Shown here in pieces: positions 21,660 through 31,275 of a DNA stretch of 36,724 nt (position 1 is the first letter of the stretch; every line of letters starts with the position of its first letter). Made by a program: the position numbers and the translations under genes. The notes beneath the pieces were generated by a model, which made no database searches, was not told the DNA's origin, and saw nothing but the letters and a program-made list of their open reading frames with translations. The DNA comes from Sulfurovum sp. (GTDB lineage Bacteria > Campylobacterota > Campylobacteria > Campylobacterales > Sulfurovaceae). The stretch covers positions 1 to 36,724 of the forward strand of contig JALWLU010000163.1 in the NCBI GenBank assembly GCA_026996325.1, read 5' to 3'.

Positions 21660-22700
21660 ATGCTCAGACAGTTCAAGCACCTCATCCATCTTCTGGAAGG
21701 GCTGCTTGTGCTGCTTCTCTTTGCACTTGCCTACAACTTCCTGCTTCCCATCGGAGAGGGTCAAAAAGTACTCTTCTTCGATGCTAATAGCACGCAGAGT
21801 CTACTCAACACCCTCAAAAAGAACGGTTACAGCACGACCCGATTTGATGCATGGCTCATCCCAAAAGAGCAGCTTCCGCTGAAAGGATGGTACCATATCG
21901 GCCATACCCGTGAGGGGCGATGGCACTTCTACCATGCACTCAACCAGAGCCCGCTTCCGGAAATGCACATCGTCATCTATCCTGGAGAGACACGCGAAGA
22001 GATTCTCTCCCGCCTGGCGAACGACGTGAAACTCGACCTTGAAAAACTTCGGAAAATATACAACTCACACGCACGCTACCCGGAGGGAGAGATTCTTGCA
22101 GGTACCTATACACTTGCAAGGAGTGCAGATGAGAATGCCACGCTGAACTATCTCTTTGAACGTTCCAACGCACAGTTTGATGCCTTCAAGAGACGCTACT
22201 TCGACAAACCCGTTGATGCCTACACCTTCAAGCTGCTGATGATCATCGCATCCATCATCCAAAAAGAGAGCAACAAACAAGAAGAGATGCCGCTGATCTC
22301 CTCTGTCATCTACAACCGCATCGACAAAGGGATGAAACTGCAGATGGACGGCACGCTCAACTACGGTGACTACTCCCACCGCATCGTCACGCCGGAGCGC
22401 ATCAAAGAGGATTCAACCTATTACAACACCTACAAGTACAAGGGTCTGCCGCCCGCACCGCTGGCCTCCTTTTCCATAGAGGCGCTCAAGGCCGCCCTCT
22501 TCCCCGCACGCAGCGACTTTCTCTTCTTTATGCTCACACCCGACGGCAGCCACAGCTTTGCTGCAGACTATGCTACACACCTGAAAAATCTCAGAGCCTT
22601 CAGGGAGTATCAGAAAAGGCGAAAGGCGCAGTCGGCACAGGAGAACAATACAACCCTCTTAAAAAAGCCTTCCCATAAGGGCCGAAAGGCGGCTAAATAG
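21660..22700 (+). CDS. mltG: Endolytic murein transglycosylase MltG
   Basis: A 346-residue inner-membrane protein with one N-terminal membrane helix (about residues 10-30). The YceG-like domain carries the catalytic glutamate in IIASIIQKES (Glu203), the substrate-groove motif IYNRIDKGMKLQMDGT and the ending LPPAPLASFS...FFMLTPDGSHSF. It cleaves nascent glycan strands and helps set their length. A Lys/Arg-rich tail (about residues 318-346) is unusual, and its coding end overlaps, antisense, the 3' end of the small ORF at 22659-22832. Confidence 0.95.
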   Translation: MLRQFKHLIHLLEGLLVLLLFALAYNFLLPIGEGQKVLFFDANSTQSLLNTLKKNGYSTTRFDAWLIPKEQLPLKGWYHIGHTREGRWHFYHALNQSPLPEMHIVIYPGETREEILSRLANDVKLDLEKLRKIYNSHARYPEGEILAGTYTLARSADENATLNYLFERSNAQFDAFKRRYFDKPVDAYTFKLLMIIASIIQKESNKQEEMPLISSVIYNRIDKGMKLQMDGTLNYGDYSHRIVTPERIKEDSTYYNTYKYKGLPPAPLASFSIEALKAALFPARSDFLFFMLTPDGSHSFAADYATHLKNLRAFREYQKRRKAQSAQENNTTLLKKPSHKGRKAAK

Positions 22701-22832
22701 CGAATCGGCAGCCTTGCGCTTCTGTTTTTGCTGCTCCTTTTGCATCCGCTGCATCTGCTCCACACGCTCAAGCTGCCGGCCAAGCGTCTCTTTGGCTTCC
22801 CTAATGCGTTTGGGTTCGAACTCACTGCGCAT
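22659..22832 (-). CDS. Small charged coiled-coil protein, 57 residues
   Basis: A short ORF beginning MRSEFEPKRIREAK and ending SRLSALMGRLF, rich in Gln, Lys, Arg and Glu with heptad-like Leu/Met spacing (LERVEQMQRMQKEQQ). Its ATG at 22832 overlaps the last 11 bases of the OmpA-domain gene, a typical translational-coupling arrangement, and it would be the third gene of the MotA/MotB-like operon. Its last 42 bases overlap the convergent mltG end. No family is recognised. Real coding is likely but not certain because of its length. Confidence 0.5.
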   Translation of the reverse strand: MRSEFEPKRIREAKETLGRQLERVEQMQRMQKEQQKQKRKAADSLFSRLSALMGRLF

Positions 22833-23946
22833 CGAGCACCTTCTCTATCTCATGCATTGCATCACGGTTTTTGAGCCTGAACTTGATCTCGATACGGCGT
22901 GAGGCATCTTTGTCCTCCACACCATTTACCTTGACAGGGTCCAGAAAGGCGCGTCCGGAAGCGACCAGCAGCGGTTTGAGATTGTACTTCTTGGCAATAT
23001 CGAGTGTCAGCAGATAGTGCATGACCGCAAAGGCACGCCGCTGTGAGAGGTCTAGGTTGTAGAGGTAGCCGCCGTCACTGTCGGTGTGCCCTTCGATGAT
23101 GATTTTGTCGAGGTAGGGTTTGATGGCAGGGTTTGTCACCAGCGTTCCTATATACTCCTCGAATGCTCGCTTGAGCTCCCCTTTGGCATCCTCTTTGAGC
23201 ACGGCGCTCCCTTTGTCGAAGAGTACGTTGGAAGCCAGCTTGAGCGCCCCGCTCTTCCTGTCGATACGCACCTTGTCACCCAGTGCCTCTTTGAGCGCAG
23301 CGATAACCTTCAGACGAATACCGGTAAGCGATTTTATCTTTGCTTTCTGGCTCTGAAGCCTCTCAAGCAGCGCATCGTACTTTGTCCGTTTCTCATCGAG
23401 CGCACTGGCAAGCTTGAGCAGCTGTGCCTCATTTGCCTTGATGGTTTTGTTGGCATCACTGAGCGCACCGGAGAGCACAACAATCTTCCCTTTATACTCC
23501 TTGAGCTGTCTGTTTAAAGTAGCATTGGTATCGTTGAGCATCTTCTGTACGATGACCAGTTTGCCTGCCAACCGGTCTTTTTGGGTATTGGCCTCAAGCA
23601 GCATGCGTGTGAGTTTTTGTATCTCCTCCTCTTTGAGCCTGATAGTCTGCATCTGGGCATCGAGAGAACGGTTCTTTGTTAGCAGGTCTTTTTCGCGCTC
23701 ACTGAGCAGTACTTTGTTCTTTTGCAGGTCCGCACTCAGGGATTCGAGCATCTTTTCGCGGCTCTGAAGTGTAGAGGAGAGCTGACTGAGTCTCTCCTCT
23801 TTTTTGTGCAGGTCACTTTTGAGAATCATGGATTTGGAGACAATGGCGCCGATGAGGAGGATGAAGACAAAGAGCAGTCCCGCCATCAGGTCGGCATAGG
23901 AGATCCAGAAGTTGTTCCCCTCGTCCGTACTTTTGCGTCGGAACAT
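22822..23946 (-). CDS. MotB-like protein: TM, coiled coil, OmpA domain
   Basis: A 374-residue protein. Residues 13-37 form the single membrane helix FWISYADLMAGLLFVFIL with Asp19 at the position of the proton-carrying aspartate of MotB and ZorB. A long charged coiled coil (about residues 40-215) should project into the periplasm, followed by an OmpA-type peptidoglycan-binding domain (about 245-360; IIIEGHTDSDGGYLYNLDLSQRRA). Flagellar MotB lacks so long a spacer. The ATG at 23946 overlaps the stop of the MotA-like gene (TGATG). With that partner it should form an ion-driven rotary motor anchored to the cell wall. The output is unknown. Confidence 0.88.
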   Translation of the reverse strand: MFRRKSTDEGNNFWISYADLMAGLLFVFILLIGAIVSKSMILKSDLHKKEERLSQLSSTLQSREKMLESLSADLQKNKVLLSEREKDLLTKNRSLDAQMQTIRLKEEEIQKLTRMLLEANTQKDRLAGKLVIVQKMLNDTNATLNRQLKEYKGKIVVLSGALSDANKTIKANEAQLLKLASALDEKRTKYDALLERLQSQKAKIKSLTGIRLKVIAALKEALGDKVRIDRKSGALKLASNVLFDKGSAVLKEDAKGELKRAFEEYIGTLVTNPAIKPYLDKIIIEGHTDSDGGYLYNLDLSQRRAFAVMHYLLTLDIAKKYNLKPLLVASGRAFLDPVKVNGVEDKDASRRIEIKFRLKNRDAMHEIEKVLDAQ

Positions 23947-25064
23947 CACTCACCCGCTCTGTTGTTCTCTTTGAGTGCGGCAAGGGTCTTGAGTATCTCC
24001 CGGTTCTGCTCGGAGAGTATTCTTGAGAAGGTGGCAAGCTTTTCGACCACGTCACCAATCTCTGCATCGATCTTCTCGAACGTGCGGTCCACACTGCCGT
24101 CAAAACGCTGCATGGAGCGCTGAAGATTCTTCGCATTTTCGTTGAAGCCCTCGATATTCTCCTTGATAGTAGCGACCGCATTGACACTCTCGCCTCTGCT
24201 CTCGATACGATCGAGCGTATCGCGCAGCTCTCTTGAAATCTGCTGCATCCCTTTGGTGATCTGCGTGAAGCTGTCGGTCGTATCGGAGACAATGGTCGTG
24301 AAGTTCTTGAGGTACTGGTCGTTGAGCTCCTTGATGAAGTCCATATTGAAGGTCTCTTTGAGCGTTTGGACGATCTCCTGGTCCTTGAGCTCGCTCTGCA
24401 TATGCTCGTGCTTGATGAGCTCCGCCTTTTTCCAGACACGGTTCTCGTAGAGCTTCTCAAGATCGTAGAGGTTCTTCTCCACCTTGCTCACACCCCGCTT
24501 CTCGAAGTAGATCCAGACCAGTGAAAGCGCGATGCCGTAGATGGAGGCGTAAAAGGCCGTGCCGATACCTGAAAGCAGGATGGAGATCTCCTGGTCGAGC
24601 GCATCGAGGTCCTTGACGGTAAAGTCGGGCATCGACATAGCTATGGCAATGAAGGTCCCCAAAATCCCCAGCATCGGAAATACGGAGGGGGCAACCCTTG
24701 CGAAGTTGTCGTTTCTAATATCTTTATAGAACTCCTCCATAAAGTCTTTCACATGCAGCGTCGACTTGGTCTTGCCCATAATGGTCAGCGCATTGGCTCG
24801 CAGCTCCTTTTGCAGCTTCTCCTCCATCTGAATGAACGATCCACGCATATGACAGGCGGCGTAGTTGGCATTGTGGCGCACAAAGAGAAGAAAAACAACA
24901 AAGATAAAAGCGATGATGACCAGCGTGTGTATCTCCACGTGAAGCGGTATGATACCTGCATAGCCAAGCGCCAGTGCAACAAGCAGCAGCATTGGTAGCA
25001 GCACGATGGCGAAAGCCTGTGCAAAACAGGAGGGTTTTTGGGCAGTGTTTTCCAGTACGAACAT
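23946..25064 (-). CDS. MotA/TolQ/ExbB-like proton-channel protein with long cytoplasmic tail
   Basis: A 372-residue inner-membrane protein with four membrane helices (about residues 17-39, 47-63, 123-145, 165-187). The TM3 region VFPMLGILGTFIAIAM and TM4 region LLSGIGTAFYASIYGIAL are the MotA/ExbB hallmarks that line the channel. A C-terminal helical tail of about 180 residues (190-372) is predicted to reach into the cytoplasm, a feature shared with ZorA of Zorya defence systems. It is first in the operon and overlaps the MotB-like gene. No flagellar, Tol, TonB or Zorya effector genes are adjacent. An upstream region with repeat B separates it from the divergent kinase gene. Confidence 0.88.
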   Translation of the reverse strand: MFVLENTAQKPSCFAQAFAIVLLPMLLLVALALGYAGIIPLHVEIHTLVIIAFIFVVFLLFVRHNANYAACHMRGSFIQMEEKLQKELRANALTIMGKTKSTLHVKDFMEEFYKDIRNDNFARVAPSVFPMLGILGTFIAIAMSMPDFTVKDLDALDQEISILLSGIGTAFYASIYGIALSLVWIYFEKRGVSKVEKNLYDLEKLYENRVWKKAELIKHEHMQSELKDQEIVQTLKETFNMDFIKELNDQYLKNFTTIVSDTTDSFTQITKGMQQISRELRDTLDRIESRGESVNAVATIKENIEGFNENAKNLQRSMQRFDGSVDRTFEKIDAEIGDVVEKLATFSRILSEQNREILKTLAALKENNRAGE

Positions 25065-25308: not shown

Positions 25309-26931
25309 ATGAAATCTTTCAACATCTCCACCTTCATCTTTGTACTGCTACTGCTCTTCCTGGCAGCCGATTTTGCCGGTTATCGGTTTCTCAGGGAGTA
25401 TATCCGACAGAACCACGAAAAAGACACCCAAATTCTTTTCTATCAGATAAAGACCGTTACAGATGAGATGGTTGCCAAACTGATGAGAGAGCACGATACA
25501 CAAAGAGAAAACGCGTTGGCAGTACACCGAAAAGTTGCGTCGCTGCTTAAAAATGCCGACCTCAATATCTCCCTTGAAAAGATTCACAAAGAGATCAATG
25601 CCGACGATACAAGGCACCCCTATGACATCTATCTGGCAGACAAGAAGCTTGTCATTCGCAATACAACCTTCCCTGCCGACAAAGGTTTCGACCTGAGCTT
25701 TGCAAAGGAGATCTTCGATGCGCATTTCAAAAAACAAACTATCGGATACTCCGCACCCATTCAGGAGAAAGCTACCAACAGTTTTTTCAGCTACACAGAC
25801 AGCTACTTAGAAAGAGACGGAGACCCAAAAGCAATGCTGCTGCAGACAAGCTACCGCTACCATGATGTCAGTGAAGCACTGGAGGAACTCAAAACGATCA
25901 TCCAGAAGAACCCCTCCATAAGCCTACTGAAAATCTATGCATTCATCGATCATGAGTTCACCTACGAAATTGTCCTCAAACACGACGACAGACATGTAAA
26001 ACCGAACATCCAGACGCTAGAGCGTGCACACCGTGAAGGGGAGGAGACGATCAAGGAGCTCGGGCACCATACGCTCTTGACAAAGGAGTACACCGCAAAC
26101 GGTATCCCCTACCGCATGCTTCTGATGGCTACACGCAGCAGTCATGACAGTAAAATGCTCATTGTCAATGCCGTCACACTTGATGATACAGCCTACCATA
26201 ACGAACTGAGGAATCTCAATATCGCAATGGCACTGCTGACTCTCTTTGGGGTACTTGGTATCATCATTGTCTACAAGGTCCGCTCAAAAGAAGTGAAACT
26301 CTCTGAACAGGATGCTTTTGTCCAGAGCGCCATGCACGAGATCAAAACACCACTTAGCGTTATCAGCCTCAACAACGAGCTTCGTACCATCGAAAAGGGG
26401 GAGGATGAGTACAGCCAGGAGATCGACAGTGCCATCCGAACCCTGCAGACCTCCTACGATGCGATGAACTTCATTATGACACGCTCGGAGCTGACATACC
26501 CCGTTGAGAGACTTTCGCTTTCAGATGTCCTCAAGGAGCGCATCACCTTTTTCGAGCGTATCGCCGAAACCAACGACAAGCAGATAGTCGCACAGATCGA
26601 AAACGACCTGAGTGTGAAAATCTCCCATGTCGAAATGGTACGCCTCATCGACAACAACCTTTCAAACGCACTCAAATACAGTGCGCCGGGCAGCACCATC
26701 ACAGTAACGCTCAAAGAGAATGTACTGAGTTTTCACAACACCGGTACGCCCATTGAGGATACCGAAAAGATATTTGAAAAGTATGTCAGGGAGAACCGCA
26801 CTGTCGGCGGCTACGGGCTGGGGCTGGACATCGTAAAACAGATTGCAAAGCGCTACGGTATAACCATAGAGCTTCACTCCGATGCAAAGAACGGCACACG
26901 CTTCAGTTATATCTTCAAGGAGGCAGAATGA
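25309..26931 (+). CDS. Membrane sensor histidine kinase
   Basis: A 540-residue two-component kinase. A first membrane helix (residues 7-25), a periplasmic sensor region of about 270 residues, and a second helix (about residues 303-323) precede the HisKA domain with the phosphoacceptor His343 in MHEIKTPLS and the HATPase domain with the N box NNLSNALKY and the G box GGYGLGLDIV. The sensor domain is not recognised. No clear ribosome-binding site precedes the ATG. Its 3' end overlaps the TonB-dependent receptor gene by ATGA, and the response regulator lies beyond that gene, so kinase, receptor and regulator probably form one signalling unit. Confidence 0.92.
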   Translation: MKSFNISTFIFVLLLLFLAADFAGYRFLREYIRQNHEKDTQILFYQIKTVTDEMVAKLMREHDTQRENALAVHRKVASLLKNADLNISLEKIHKEINADDTRHPYDIYLADKKLVIRNTTFPADKGFDLSFAKEIFDAHFKKQTIGYSAPIQEKATNSFFSYTDSYLERDGDPKAMLLQTSYRYHDVSEALEELKTIIQKNPSISLLKIYAFIDHEFTYEIVLKHDDRHVKPNIQTLERAHREGEETIKELGHHTLLTKEYTANGIPYRMLLMATRSSHDSKMLIVNAVTLDDTAYHNELRNLNIAMALLTLFGVLGIIIVYKVRSKEVKLSEQDAFVQSAMHEIKTPLSVISLNNELRTIEKGEDEYSQEIDSAIRTLQTSYDAMNFIMTRSELTYPVERLSLSDVLKERITFFERIAETNDKQIVAQIENDLSVKISHVEMVRLIDNNLSNALKYSAPGSTITVTLKENVLSFHNTGTPIEDTEKIFEKYVRENRTVGGYGLGLDIVKQIAKRYGITIELHSDAKNGTRFSYIFKEAE

Positions 26932-28763
26932 GAAAATGTCTGTTGCTACTTCCTCTTCTGCTGAGCGTTTCAGGTGCAGAGAGCATCACACTGCAGCCCA
27001 TCGATGTCGACCAGAATATGACTTCCGAGGCTGCCGGACAGATGCGCGTCTTCTCTTCCCAAAAGGCAAAAGAACAGGACGCCAAGACACTCCAGCAGCG
27101 CCTTGAGAACGATGTCTCCTTCTCCAGGACCATCGACAACAAAGGAGAGTGGGCACTCTCTTTCAGGGGAATGGACTTCCTTGCCACAGAATATTTCGAA
27201 AACGGCATCCCTCTCTACCGTACGCCAAACGGCTTTGTCGACCCAAAATTCGTAATGACACTGGCGACACTTGTACTAAACGATGGCAGCACTCCGGGAG
27301 AGCTTGGGGTCTCGGCCACGGGAGGAGAAGTTTCCATCATCTCTCCTCTGCCCCAGAAAGCGTTTGATGCCACACTCTTTGCAACCGCTTCTACCAATGA
27401 TCGTTTTGTACATACTTCTGCCGGAACGATGCAGGAGAGATTTTACCTCCAGGCAAATGCGGCACTTTATGACCGCAACACATTTCGCATTTCGGACGAC
27501 TACCCCAAAAACAGCCTGCAGCCTGGTACCAAACGCGAAAACAGCGACAAGTACCAGGCCAACGTCTCCCTCAAGGCAGGCTGGTTTCCAAGTGATACAA
27601 CCCACATCGGCATCAAAGTGGCCTCCACCCGAGCCGAGTTTGGCATGCCCCACAATGTTCATGCCGATGAGAGTACACCGCCGGTATGGAACGCATACAG
27701 ACGCATCAATGACAAGTCGCTTGACAGCTTCTACCTCTACGGAGACTATACCGATGAAGGTGTGAGTGTGACACTGCGCACCTATATGGACCACTATGAG
27801 GATATCTTCGATATCTATAACGATGCCACCTACCTTTCCAAATGGCCGAGTGTCCTCTACAACGACCATCGCTACGGTGCCATTGCCAAAGTTTCTTTGC
27901 ATGCCGAAAAGAGCATACATACCGTTACGTTACAGTACGAGCGTAACGATCATGAACGCAGTGGAGGAGAAAAATTGGAGAACGCATTTTTTCGTGCCGA
28001 CACCCTCCGTGCAGCCTACAACTATCATCTTGACCTCTCTCCCCATTGGCAATTCGACAGTGCGATCGAGCATGTTATGCTTGACCCAAAACATGCTACC
28101 GATCTAACCGACAACACCATGCCAAACCGAAAAAGTGCCTGGAATGTCCAAGCAACACTGGGTTACAGACAGCTGCACTGGCAGATCGACCTGGGAGCAG
28201 CACTCAAACACCGTATGCCCTCAATGCGTGAGATGTTCTCACTCTTTCCATGGCACAAAGTGGACCCATCTCTAAAACCCGAAGAGAGCAGACAACTGAC
28301 ACTTTCATATAGCGGCATACTCGATGCCAAAAGCCGCATTAGTCTCTCACTCTACCACTACCAGCTCAACGATCTTATCGTCAAAGATAACCAGTATGTC
28401 ACCAACCACGATAAAGCCACCCACTACGGGGTAGAACTGCGATTCAAGAGCAACCGTTTCAAAGGTCAGCATATTGCCTTCTCATACGCCTATGCACATG
28501 CCAAAGAGGACGATGGTACGCCTTTGGAGTTCGTACCGACCCATCAGCTGACACTTGAGGATACAGTGCCCCTCACCCCCTCACTCTCACTCTACGGACG
28601 CTTTGCCTACGTGGGTATTCGCTACAGTACCGCTACAGCGATACCCTCACCGCACGTATTGGGGCAAAAAACCTTTTGGACAGCGACTATGAGTGGCAGT
28701 ACGGTTTTCCCGCAGAGGGCAGAAGTCTCTATTTTTCCATTGACTGGCGGCTTTAGTGTGTAA
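26928..28763 (+). CDS. TonB-dependent outer-membrane receptor, frameshifted near the C-terminus
   Basis: A 611-codon ORF with signal peptide (residues 1-17), a plug domain (about 20-140; EWALSFRGMDFLATEYFENGIPLYR) and a beta-barrel of aromatic-rich strands. It should import a siderophore, metal complex or other ligand using TonB. The last ~50 codons of this frame look like noise, whereas the -1 frame from 28613 to the TAG at 28754-28756 encodes a proper barrel end (TARIGAKNLLDSDYEW, then SLYFSIDWRL). One missing base in the GTGGGT run at 28611-28616 would restore it. Either a real inactivating mutation or a sequencing indel. The 4-nt overlap with the kinase gene implies co-expression. Confidence 0.85.
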   Translation: MRKCLLLLPLLLSVSGAESITLQPIDVDQNMTSEAAGQMRVFSSQKAKEQDAKTLQQRLENDVSFSRTIDNKGEWALSFRGMDFLATEYFENGIPLYRTPNGFVDPKFVMTLATLVLNDGSTPGELGVSATGGEVSIISPLPQKAFDATLFATASTNDRFVHTSAGTMQERFYLQANAALYDRNTFRISDDYPKNSLQPGTKRENSDKYQANVSLKAGWFPSDTTHIGIKVASTRAEFGMPHNVHADESTPPVWNAYRRINDKSLDSFYLYGDYTDEGVSVTLRTYMDHYEDIFDIYNDATYLSKWPSVLYNDHRYGAIAKVSLHAEKSIHTVTLQYERNDHERSGGEKLENAFFRADTLRAAYNYHLDLSPHWQFDSAIEHVMLDPKHATDLTDNTMPNRKSAWNVQATLGYRQLHWQIDLGAALKHRMPSMREMFSLFPWHKVDPSLKPEESRQLTLSYSGILDAKSRISLSLYHYQLNDLIVKDNQYVTNHDKATHYGVELRFKSNRFKGQHIAFSYAYAHAKEDDGTPLEFVPTHQLTLEDTVPLTPSLSLYGRFAYVGIRYSTATAIPSPHVLGQKTFWTATMSGSTVFPQRAEVSIFPLTGGFSV

Positions 28764-28842
28764 AAAATCACCACAAAACTATCCATTACACCAAATTTTT
28801 TCACTTTTTTACAAATGTCACACCAGTGTCATACGGATGTAG

Positions 28843-28848
28843 TATAAT
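28843..28848 (+). promoter_or_regulatory. -10 box of the REC-HTH-GGDEF gene, 7 nt before its ATG
   Basis: GTATAAT ends 7 nt before the ATG at 28856, with no ribosome-binding site in between, so the mRNA is predicted to be leaderless. The box also argues against the longer in-frame starts at 28826 and 28847. Confidence 0.55.
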
Positions 28849-28855
28849 GATTACT

Positions 28856-30058
28856 ATGAAAATTCTTTTGCTTGAAGATGATATTGCACTGAACAAGGCG
28901 ATCAGGAAAGTGCTCGAACTCGACCGTCATGAGGTTGCTGTCTTTACAGACGGCAAAGCGGTGCTTGAAGCACTTCCGGGCTCCTATGGTCTCTACATTC
29001 TCGATATCAACGTACCGCATATCACAGGTTTGCAACTGCTTGGGAAGATCATGGAAACCAAAAGCGATGCGCAGGTAATGATCATCAGCTCCAACACCGA
29101 TCTGGAGTCGATCGAGAACGCATACGGCATCGGGTGTGTCGACTACCTAAAAAAGCCGTTTCACATCACCGAGCTGCGTGCAAAGATCAACCGCATCAAG
29201 CCTCCCAAAACCGATCTTCTCTCCAAGGTCAAACTCCACTCTCAGGAGGAGGTGCTGACAAAAAAGGAGAAAAAACTGCTTACGCTGCTGCTTGAGCATA
29301 TGGGAGAGACGGTAACCTACAAAATGATCGCCAGTGAGATTTACGACAACAAGGAGATGAGTATGGAAGCACTGCGTACCCTGATGCGCAGGCTTCGTGC
29401 CAAACTCGAAAGCGATATCATACGCAATGTCATCGATGAAGGGTATTCCATTCCCTCACTCGATCCGGCAAGTACACAAGAGAGAAGAAGTGACATCTCT
29501 GCGCTGCTGTATGAAAACAGGCAACTTCGAAGAGAACGCGAAATACTAAGGAAAAAGGCTTTCACCGATCCTTTAACCGGATTGTACAACCGTGCACGTA
29601 TGGAGGAGGTCTTTCTCTTCGAACACCAGAAGTTCCTGCAGTACAACACCCCTTTTTCCATCGCTCTGATAGACCTCGACGACTTCAAAGATGTCAACGA
29701 TACCTTTGGACATACTGTCGGGGACAGATACCTCAAGATGATCTCAAAACATATGATGGCATTCTTCAAACAGCAGGGGATCATCGGTCGCTGGGGCGGG
29801 GAGGAGTTTCTCATCATGCTCCCGGGGCTCTCTCTGAATGAGGCCAAAGCGCTTGTAGAACGATTTCAAACCTCGTTTCGGGATATAGACTGCCCGACCA
29901 TCGGAGAGCGTACCGCATCCTTCGGTCTTGCAAGCATCGATACGGACGATACCCTCAGCTCACTTGTCAGCCGTGCGGACGAAGCGCTTCTTCTGGCAAA
30001 GCTCAAAGGCAAAAACCGCATAGAGGTCAATGACCGGAGTATGCACATCAGTGCCTAA
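28856..30058 (+). CDS. Response regulator: REC, OmpR-type winged helix and GGDEF
   Basis: A 400-residue regulator. The REC domain (1-115) has the acidic pair Glu7-Asp8-Asp9, phosphoacceptor Asp50 and Lys100 in KKPF. Residues 130-200 form an OmpR/PhoB-type winged helix (LTKKEKKLLTLLLEH, EALRTLMRRLRAKL). After a short coiled coil (about 212-235), residues 237-395 are a GGDEF domain with TDPLTGLYNR and an intact GGEEF site (314-318), so it should make c-di-GMP. The RxxD inhibitory site is absent (KQQG at that position). A DNA-binding and cyclase domain in one protein is unusual. Likely partner: the kinase at 25309. The stop overlaps that of the convergent gene. Confidence 0.92.
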   Translation: MKILLLEDDIALNKAIRKVLELDRHEVAVFTDGKAVLEALPGSYGLYILDINVPHITGLQLLGKIMETKSDAQVMIISSNTDLESIENAYGIGCVDYLKKPFHITELRAKINRIKPPKTDLLSKVKLHSQEEVLTKKEKKLLTLLLEHMGETVTYKMIASEIYDNKEMSMEALRTLMRRLRAKLESDIIRNVIDEGYSIPSLDPASTQERRSDISALLYENRQLRREREILRKKAFTDPLTGLYNRARMEEVFLFEHQKFLQYNTPFSIALIDLDDFKDVNDTFGHTVGDRYLKMISKHMMAFFKQQGIIGRWGGEEFLIMLPGLSLNEAKALVERFQTSFRDIDCPTIGERTASFGLASIDTDDTLSSLVSRADEALLLAKLKGKNRIEVNDRSMHISA

Positions 30059-31275
30059 TCGAGTGTCAATACCTCTCCAAAGGGCACCTCTTTGGCTTCG
30101 GGCATCACCCACATCACATCGTACCCGGGTGCTTCATCGGGAAAGGTTCCCATACCGTCGGTAAAGTAGAGCAGCAGCGTAGGGTAACTCACTTCACGCT
30201 CGATATGTTCGAATACCGGCCTGAAATCAGTCCCCCCTCCTCCTTTAACACTGTATTCAAGCGCTTCCCCGGGAAGAAACACCTTATGGCTCTGCACCTT
30301 CGCATCGGCGGTAATGAGGTCTATCTCGTAGTTGCCGTAGCTCTGCATAATGCCGTCCACTTCTCCAAGAAACGTCCCAAGCAGCTCTTCATCAACAGAT
30401 CCCGAGGTATCGACGGCGATGACAATACGCAGCAGGTCCGAGCTGAGGCTGGGCAGGCATATGCCTCGGTAGAGATACTTGGGGTTTGGCGGCATGAAGC
30501 TGTAGGTGCTTTTGGCAAACTCGGCAATGTAGCGGTAGAGCAGCTCGCGCCAGTGGATCTTGTGCGAAAAATATGCCGGTACGACAAACTCAAGCCCCTG
30601 CGGAAGCTCCCCTTGGCGTTTGAATTTCTGGAATATCTGTTCGAAATACTCCGCAAGCTCCTCCTGCAGTGCGGAAAGCGCTTCATCAGTAAGTGTCTCT
30701 TCCTCTGCCGAAAGCGGCTGCGGCATTTCGGCGGCCTGCTCCGGTCTTTGCGGAGGCTCCGTCGGCGTATCGTTCTGCGTTTGTGTCTGCTGCTCTTTGC
30801 TCTCCCCATCTCCCTCCTGCTGCGGCACATCATCAGGGGTCGGGGCTTCGCTCTCATCAAGCGTCTGGTTATAGATCATCTCGTCTTTGAGAATGTCGTA
30901 GATCTCTTCGGCGTACATATTCTCGAAGCGCTCGTCGTAGTAGGCGTAGGGAGGAAGCGTAAAGTCGTTCTTTACCAGCATACTGTTTACCGCCAGATCG
31001 GTGGCTGCCTGCCAGATGCGCCCTACCCGCTGCTCTATACGCTCATGGTGCTTAAGCAGTGCGTGCATCGCACCGTTGGCAAGTGCGAACTCGATCTCAT
31101 CGAGCGGCGCTCTTTCGATGTACTCTTCGTTATAGGTCAGCTTCGTACCGTCACTGCCGAATGTCAGCGCGTTGCCGTCGGGGTTCATCTGCAGCACCGT
31201 GGCTACAGAGCCGATGTAGGGGTGCTCGAGCATCAGTTTGGCTTTGGCCTTGGCTATCTTCTCTTCGTGTGTCAT
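30055..31275 (-). CDS. DUF2201-type protein with VWA-like domain
   Basis: A 406-residue cytosolic protein. The N-terminal part (about 1-140) resembles the putative metallopeptidase half of DUF2201 proteins, but the expected HExxH is NGAMH (followed by ALLKHHER), lacking the first His and the Glu. A Pro/Glu/Gln-rich linker (about residues 150-200) leads to a C-terminal VWA-like domain with MIDAS motif VDTSGSVDEE, GGGTDF and LYFTDG. Such proteins usually pair with a MoxR-type AAA+ ATPase; none is adjacent. A minus-strand TATAAT lies 6 nt before the ATG. Function unknown. Confidence 0.85.
   Translation of the reverse strand: MTHEEKIAKAKAKLMLEHPYIGSVATVLQMNPDGNALTFGSDGTKLTYNEEYIERAPLDEIEFALANGAMHALLKHHERIEQRVGRIWQAATDLAVNSMLVKNDFTLPPYAYYDERFENMYAEEIYDILKDEMIYNQTLDESEAPTPDDVPQQEGDGESKEQQTQTQNDTPTEPPQRPEQAAEMPQPLSAEEETLTDEALSALQEELAEYFEQIFQKFKRQGELPQGLEFVVPAYFSHKIHWRELLYRYIAEFAKSTYSFMPPNPKYLYRGICLPSLSSDLLRIVIAVDTSGSVDEELLGTFLGEVDGIMQSYGNYEIDLITADAKVQSHKVFLPGEALEYSVKGGGGTDFRPVFEHIEREVSYPTLLLYFTDGMGTFPDEAPGYDVMWVMPEAKEVPFGEVLTLD

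Follow-up and report, generated by a model that had tools for sequence, protein, structure and literature searches.

A ZorAB-type motor gene pair and its small third gene in Sulfurovum and other Campylobacterales

The flagellar stator MotAB, the TolQR and ExbBD complexes, and the ZorAB motor of Zorya form a superfamily of motors. Work on Zorya and MotAB is the basis for the 5:2 assembly, ion-driven turning, and tail movement proposed for the motor described here (PMC11890865). Zorya has been studied as a mobile defense system. In type I Zorya (Klebsiella plasmid locus L161; PDB 8qyd and 8vvn), the gene order is A-B, and ZorA is a MotA-fold protein of 729 amino acids with a cytoplasmic helical tail. 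Type II (8vvi) is represented by Sulfuricurvum, from the same phylum as the locus described here. We analyzed a 36,724-nucleotide (nt) stretch of Sulfurovum sp. DNA (GenBank assembly GCA_026996325.1, contig JALWLU010000163.1), which we refer to as the window. It carries three overlapping genes, here called A, B, and C. We found that A-B(-C), while a ZorAB-type motor, forms a new variant that falls outside the definition of Zorya. The genes and their parts, with the evidence for each in parentheses, are as follows.

23946-25064, minus strand: gene A, ZorA-like subunit with the MotA/ExbB fold, 372 amino acids (PF01618, fold match, tree)
24510-24710, minus strand: predicted transmembrane (TM) helices 3 and 4 of A, about residues 119-185 (alignment, conservation profile)
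23949-24452, minus strand: predicted cytoplasmic helical tail of A, ~165 residues, about 205-372 (model, alignment, conservation profile)
22822-23949, minus strand: gene B, ZorB-like subunit with a TM helix, coiled coil, and OmpA domain, 375 amino acids (PF00691, PADLOC ZorB1, ZorB fold match)
23890-23892, minus strand: codon of the putative channel residue Asp20 of B (invariant in the B alignment)
23326-23820, minus strand: predicted periplasmic coiled-coil spacer of B, ~165 residues, about 44-208 (heptad pattern, spacer lengths)
22981-23223, minus strand: predicted OmpA peptidoglycan-binding domain of B, residues 243-323 (Pfam, fold search)
22659-22832, minus strand: gene C, small third protein, 57 amino acids (locus conservation, ratio of nonsynonymous to synonymous substitution rates [dN/dS])

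With PADLOC profiles, B matched ZorB1 (4.1e-57) and A matched ZorA2 (8.1e-20). The Zor families also topped the NCBIfam lists for A and B, yet far below the ZorA and ZorB cut-offs; by homology, though under those cut-offs, the two are a ZorA/ZorB motor pair. When the PDB was searched by sequence, the best matches were ZorB (8qyd and 8vvn) for B and ZorA (8qyk) for A. Searched by fold, B matched ZorB (8vvn, 5.6e-11), and the best matches of A were ZorA 8qyd (5.2e-5) and 8qyh, with TolQ and ExbB behind at about 0.04. Because the predicted template modeling (pTM) score of the A model is low (0.53), we treat the fold ranking of A as supporting evidence only. We also built a tree of the TM3-TM4 core (109 columns, with two MotA rows only and long Zor branches), in which A, ZorA1, and ZorA2-like proteins separated from TolQ, ExbB, and MotA with support of 100/100. 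This split persisted after two long-branch rows were dropped. Within A plus ZorA, the tree gave no resolved deep order and spoke neither for nor against A as a single clade beside ZorA. Klebsiella ZorB1 carries FWISYADLM, which is the motif around Asp20 of B, and shares with B the channel Asp and a C-terminal OmpA domain. Judged by profile, fold, and tree, A and B belong to the ZorAB branch and not to MotAB, TolQR, or ExbBD. The original prediction, made from the window sequence alone, was of an orphan ion-driven motor that belongs to the MotAB/TolQR/ZorAB superfamily and is extended on both sides of the membrane. The superfamily, both extensions, and the lack of a flagellar or Zorya partner all stand, but the motor, which that reading had left unplaced, can now be assigned to the ZorAB branch.

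A-B differs from type I Zorya in that A is a 372-amino-acid protein with a tail of about 165 residues, B has a long heptad coiled coil, and there is an extra small gene, C. It also differs in gene content, since zorC is absent and zorD was not seen beside A-B. ZorC (PF15611) was found in 0 of the 150 genomes of the family Sulfurovaceae. The ZorC profile was silent on all control genomes of that search; because no control genome gave a match, we ran it on two Zorya plasmids, in both of which it detects ZorC. Neither the ZorD helicase nor the ZorE HNH nuclease was found beside A-B in the window or among the recurrent neighbor families, by Pfam or by eye and with no genome-wide search for them. 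Compared with type II Zorya, which is also 5:2 motor kin, A has two extra N-terminal TM helices and a beta hairpin, and no HNH gene was seen next to A-B. Strict Zorya is ruled out by the absence of ZorC and by the distribution of the pair.

We found A in 120 of the 150 Sulfurovaceae genomes and in 77 of the 88 good ones, nearly always in single copy, which is not the patchy mobile distribution expected of Zorya. Across the class, a B profile had matches in 167 of 347 genomes (166 of the 346 good ones) and in 22 of 63 genera, and the named relatives are from Sulfurovum, Sulfurimonas, and Sulfurospirillum. The relatives of A largely track organism families in the TM3-TM4 tree, and no A-B relatives were found in viral contigs. 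From these comparisons, A-B looks like a core gene pair of Sulfurovaceae and many other Campylobacterales that is vertically inherited, whereas type I Zorya is a mobile defense system. The orphan motor is thus not a local oddity of the window. In family f3, the gene order is a PPIC-type rotamase gene, a fructose-bisphosphate-aldolase-like gene, A, B, and a desulfhydrase-like gene. We take this to be the Cj0596-Cj0600 region of Campylobacter jejuni, in which case A would be Cj0598 and B would be Cj0599. Cj0598, the probable Campylobacter orthologue, is recorded as hypothetical, with no known function (PMC5841378). The literature mentioning the tags Cj0598 and Cj0599 assigned no function, and we found no close orthology to a characterized system.

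ZorA2/ZorB2 homologues sit at separate loci in some genomes with A-B; G011, G277, and G240 each have a ZorA2-like gene apart from A-B. At the G011 locus (L177), a ZorA2/ZorB2-like pair is followed by an HNH-like protein, identified by eye. Family f2, presumably Helicobacteraceae, has a different ZorA2/ZorB2-like pair with an A subunit of 640 to 930 amino acids; at most of the loci read, this pair comes after exbB-exbD. At five f2 loci (L179, L180, L182, L183, and L185), this pair is an orphan with an A subunit of about 870 to 930 amino acids. It follows ispE-like, smpB-like, exbB-like, and exbD-like genes there, and no ZorE was seen alongside.

B matched the Pfam OmpA family (PF00691; E = 1.4e-11, above cut-off) and, weakly, MotB_plug (PF13677; E = 1.2e-3, below cut-off). 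The AlphaFold models of A and B are of single chains. In the B model (mean predicted local distance difference test [pLDDT] score of 77.9), a helix in two pieces (residues 13 to 141 and 152 to 223) is followed by an OmpA fold. In the B alignment, Asp20 is invariant inside the motif NFWISYADLMAGLLFVFILLIGAI, and the OmpA domain keeps its invariant residues. With the MotA/ExbB fold of A and this Asp-bearing TM helix of B, the pair has the features of the 5:2 rotary-motor superfamily.

Across B proteins, the spacer that joins the membrane helix to the OmpA domain is 102 to 242 residues long. Among 98 unique B proteins we found 24 distinct spacer lengths, 18 of which share one residue class modulo 7; the chance of such clustering is about 2e-10 assuming independent lengths, and related sequences are not fully independent. 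In the window, the spacer is hydrophobic at 56% of the a/d positions versus 16% of the others, a contrast reached by 0 of 200 shuffles. The contrast was likewise unmatched by any shuffle in 96 of the 98 B proteins. Because the length shifts between species are nearly all whole heptads and the a/d positions are hydrophobic, the sequence pattern indicates a genuine coiled coil in the spacer, with its register maintained. At 0.15 nm per residue, a straight stalk would be ~15 to 36 nm long. The longest straight stalks may exceed the periplasm, and a folded-back form is possible.

A matched the Pfam MotA_ExbB family (PF01618; E = 4.9e-9, above cut-off). Its model (mean pLDDT, 73.8) has four membrane helices (residues 14 to 36, 45 to 62, 119 to 143, and 153 to 205), a beta hairpin (92 to 101), and a helical tail (213 to 371) of low confidence (pLDDT of about 50 to 60). 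By alignment and conservation profile, the most conserved part of A is TM3-TM4, with the motifs FPMLGILGTF and SGIGTAFYASIYG. The tip of the tail also has a conserved motif, IDxE (Asp333 and Glu335), and the region before it is variable. That the tip is kept while the stretch before it varies suggests that it has a binding partner. We looked for heptad periodicity in the A tail and found none. In a 17-sequence alignment of A, the Cys residues at positions 13 and 71 are invariant. A MotA/ExbB-like protein with a long helical tail and a partner with a channel Asp, a periplasmic coiled coil, and an OmpA domain are what the original prediction had read from the window, and our results agree with it on each part.

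The same is true of the overlapping genes and the 57-codon open reading frame (ORF) after them, which proved also to be conserved. A and B overlap by 4 nt counting from the GTG start of B and by 1 nt from the following ATG, and B and C overlap by 11 nt. Of 131 B loci, some of which share a genome, 109 have an ORF of about 39 to 67 codons after B, and in 92 of the 109 the C start lies 11 nt ahead of the B end. We found that dN/dS for C is below 1 in 40 comparable pairs, with a median of 0.22. Judged from this conservation, C is a real gene, the third of the operon, under purifying selection. The C protein has a conserved N terminus like xxDFEPxxLKxA and often a basic/aromatic segment at its C-terminal end. 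It had no match of note in Pfam, NCBIfam, or PADLOC. C is missing from Campylobacter-like genomes and some f10 genomes. We considered whether C is fused into the longer A of the Campylobacter-like genomes, but there was no profile match and no trace of it in A or B there. A promoter and terminator scan gave weak promoter-like sites 5′ of A and no terminator on the operon strand.

Pfam searches of the window genes found no flagellar, tol, or zor gene adjoining A-B, as had been noted from the sequence. In a search for the gene pair across genomes, only A-B, usually with C, was constant, and the other neighbors varied by lineage. Two neighbors of A-B in the window bear on this comparison.

21660-22700, plus strand: convergent mltG-type lytic transglycosylase gene (PF02618, 6e-52)
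30055-31275, minus strand: DUF2201 metallopeptidase/VWA gene, upstream context (Pfam, neighborhoods)

About 20 Sulfurovum loci have a convergent mltG gene downstream of the operon, an arrangement not seen elsewhere. In 18 named loci, from sister lineages of Sulfurovaceae, mreB-mreC adjoin A-B upstream, and in 8 loci murA (named by EPSP-synthase-family match and sequence) lies 1.4 to 4.2 kb away. Downstream of A-B in Sulfurimonas lie an AMIN-domain gene and a small gene that looks FtsB-like by eye but has no Pfam hit. These cell-wall neighbors are only suggestive of an envelope role, to which the invariant residues of the OmpA domain also point. Of the remaining neighbors, DUF2201/VWA is upstream of A-B in 31 loci, and mnmA is upstream in another clade. 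The mltG-type gene is present twice in several Sulfurovaceae genomes; in the window, G033, and G006, one of the copies adjoins A-B. The ends of C and mltG overlap by 42 nt in the window (22659-22700).

Our preferred explanation, to which we give about even credence, is that A-B(-C) is a housekeeping ZorAB-type ion motor whose output is most likely in the cell envelope, not in phage killing or swimming. The pair is probably housekeeping. By homology with Zorya and MotAB, five A subunits would surround the TM helices of a B dimer, and B would be tied to peptidoglycan through its OmpA domains on the heptad coiled-coil stalk. Ions would pass Asp20 of B and conserved Ser/Thr residues of A, and the A ring would turn against the wall-anchored B. 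This turning would move the five-helix tail of A in the cytoplasm. The tail tip of A, C, or both may then pass movement or a signal to a cytoplasmic partner. The output may be the sensing or driving of peptidoglycan growth or remodeling. A broader version of this proposal, which we consider possible but doubtful, is that a three-component wall-anchored ZorAB-type motor, with its long heptad stalk and new small subunit, is core envelope machinery of Campylobacterales. It would provide a mechanical link between the ion gradient and peptidoglycan growth (MreBC/MltG) and could represent a housekeeping lineage that either gave rise to Zorya or ran beside it.

Several points weigh against the envelope motor. 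Each cell-wall neighbor is restricted to a single lineage. We found no universal mreBC or mltG link in a set of 31 genomes, where both usually lie far from A-B; mreC was next to A-B in the three g8 genomes of the set (about 7 kb off in G004), and mltG was next to A-B in two, G033 and G006. Because the cell-wall category was chosen after the neighbors had been seen, the adjacency is not a statistical result. In the genomes sampled, Sulfurovaceae genera g3 and g7 and family f2 also lack A-B, and the pair is therefore no general requirement for rod growth. Finally, taking B as the anchored rather than the rotating part is an assumption by homology.

A vertically inherited ZorAB-type motor without Zorya effectors, in the order that includes Campylobacter, suggests that such motors also have an ordinary cellular job. 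It allows the function of a ZorAB motor to be studied on its own, with gene C and the heptad-bound stalk as concrete parts to mutate. Automated defense annotation may label these core genes ZorAB.

The closest kin of A-B are ZorAB, and Zorya defense needs peptidoglycan binding, ion flow, and the tail (PMC11890865). A-B could accordingly be a core chromosomal anti-phage defense in which the motor detects damage to the wall and acts together with an effector whose gene lies elsewhere. We consider this unlikely, given that the pair has a near-universal vertical distribution in Sulfurovaceae, ZorC is absent, A-B is flanked by housekeeping genes, and a distinct ZorA2/ZorB2-like pair is present in some of these genomes. 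A similarly small chance attaches to a sensing or signaling motor. Here wall tension would open the channel, and the A tail and C would switch a cytoplasmic partner, for example, DUF2201/VWA in Sulfurovum. Conservation of the tail-tip motif and of C fits this model, as does the DUF2201/VWA gene directly upstream in many Sulfurovum loci, but that gene is not beside A-B in other families and is thus no universal partner.

Less likely still is that A-B powers surface (gliding-type) motility in the manner of the Myxococcus motor AglRQS, acting through MreB and MltG-modified peptidoglycan. In that organism, the MotAB-like gliding motor is connected to peptidoglycan by an MltG homologue, and MreB participates (PMC11444678); mreBC or mltG is adjacent to A-B in two lineages. 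The likeness to AglRQS, AgmT/MltG, and MreB is one of concept only, a MotAB-like motor linked to MreB and an MltG-type transglycosylase, and we take it as a lead only. Adjacency of A-B to mreBC or mltG is confined to single lineages, no gliding genes were found beside A-B, A-B is also present in genomes that have their own MotA gene, and A sits in the ZorA branch. We give almost no credence to the idea that A-B is a flagellar stator or the remnant of one. A-B does share with flagellar MotAB the MotA/ExbB fold, an Asp-bearing helix in B, and the OmpA domain, and FlhF-like and FliMN_C-like genes lie a few kilobases upstream in one Sulfurovum clade. We found no conserved pairing with flagellar genes, and most lineages have no flagellar neighbors of A-B. 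In addition, FliG is missing from 149 of the 150 family genomes, and the sole genome with FliG, G007, lacks A. This absence and the grouping of A apart from MotA (100/100; two MotA rows) rule out a flagellar stator. TolQR/ExbBD share the MotA/ExbB fold of A but are also ruled out, by separate TolQ-like and ExbB-like genes in the same genomes, by their separate tree branch, and by the OmpA domain of B, which, with its long stalk, sets B apart. The search of the window's own assembly (84.6% complete) turned up TolQ-like and ExbB-like genes in addition to A, and nothing that matched MotA.

We also made several minor observations. Histidine kinase, TonB-receptor-like, and response-regulator/GGDEF genes (25309-30058) separate DUF2201/VWA from A in the window; most relatives with a DUF2201/VWA gene carry it much nearer A, often directly upstream. 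The position of the TonB-receptor-like gene (26928-28763) is not conserved in relatives. A FliMN_C-like protein of about 160 amino acids is encoded beside mnmA, a few kilobases upstream of A-B, at L052, L053, L054, and L056 and in G122, G124, G134, and G143. An FlhF-like gene is also present in the named loci, and FliG is absent from G122, G124, G134, and G143. Across the 149 family genomes lacking FliG, a FliMN_C-like protein was found in 34, often near the cut-off.

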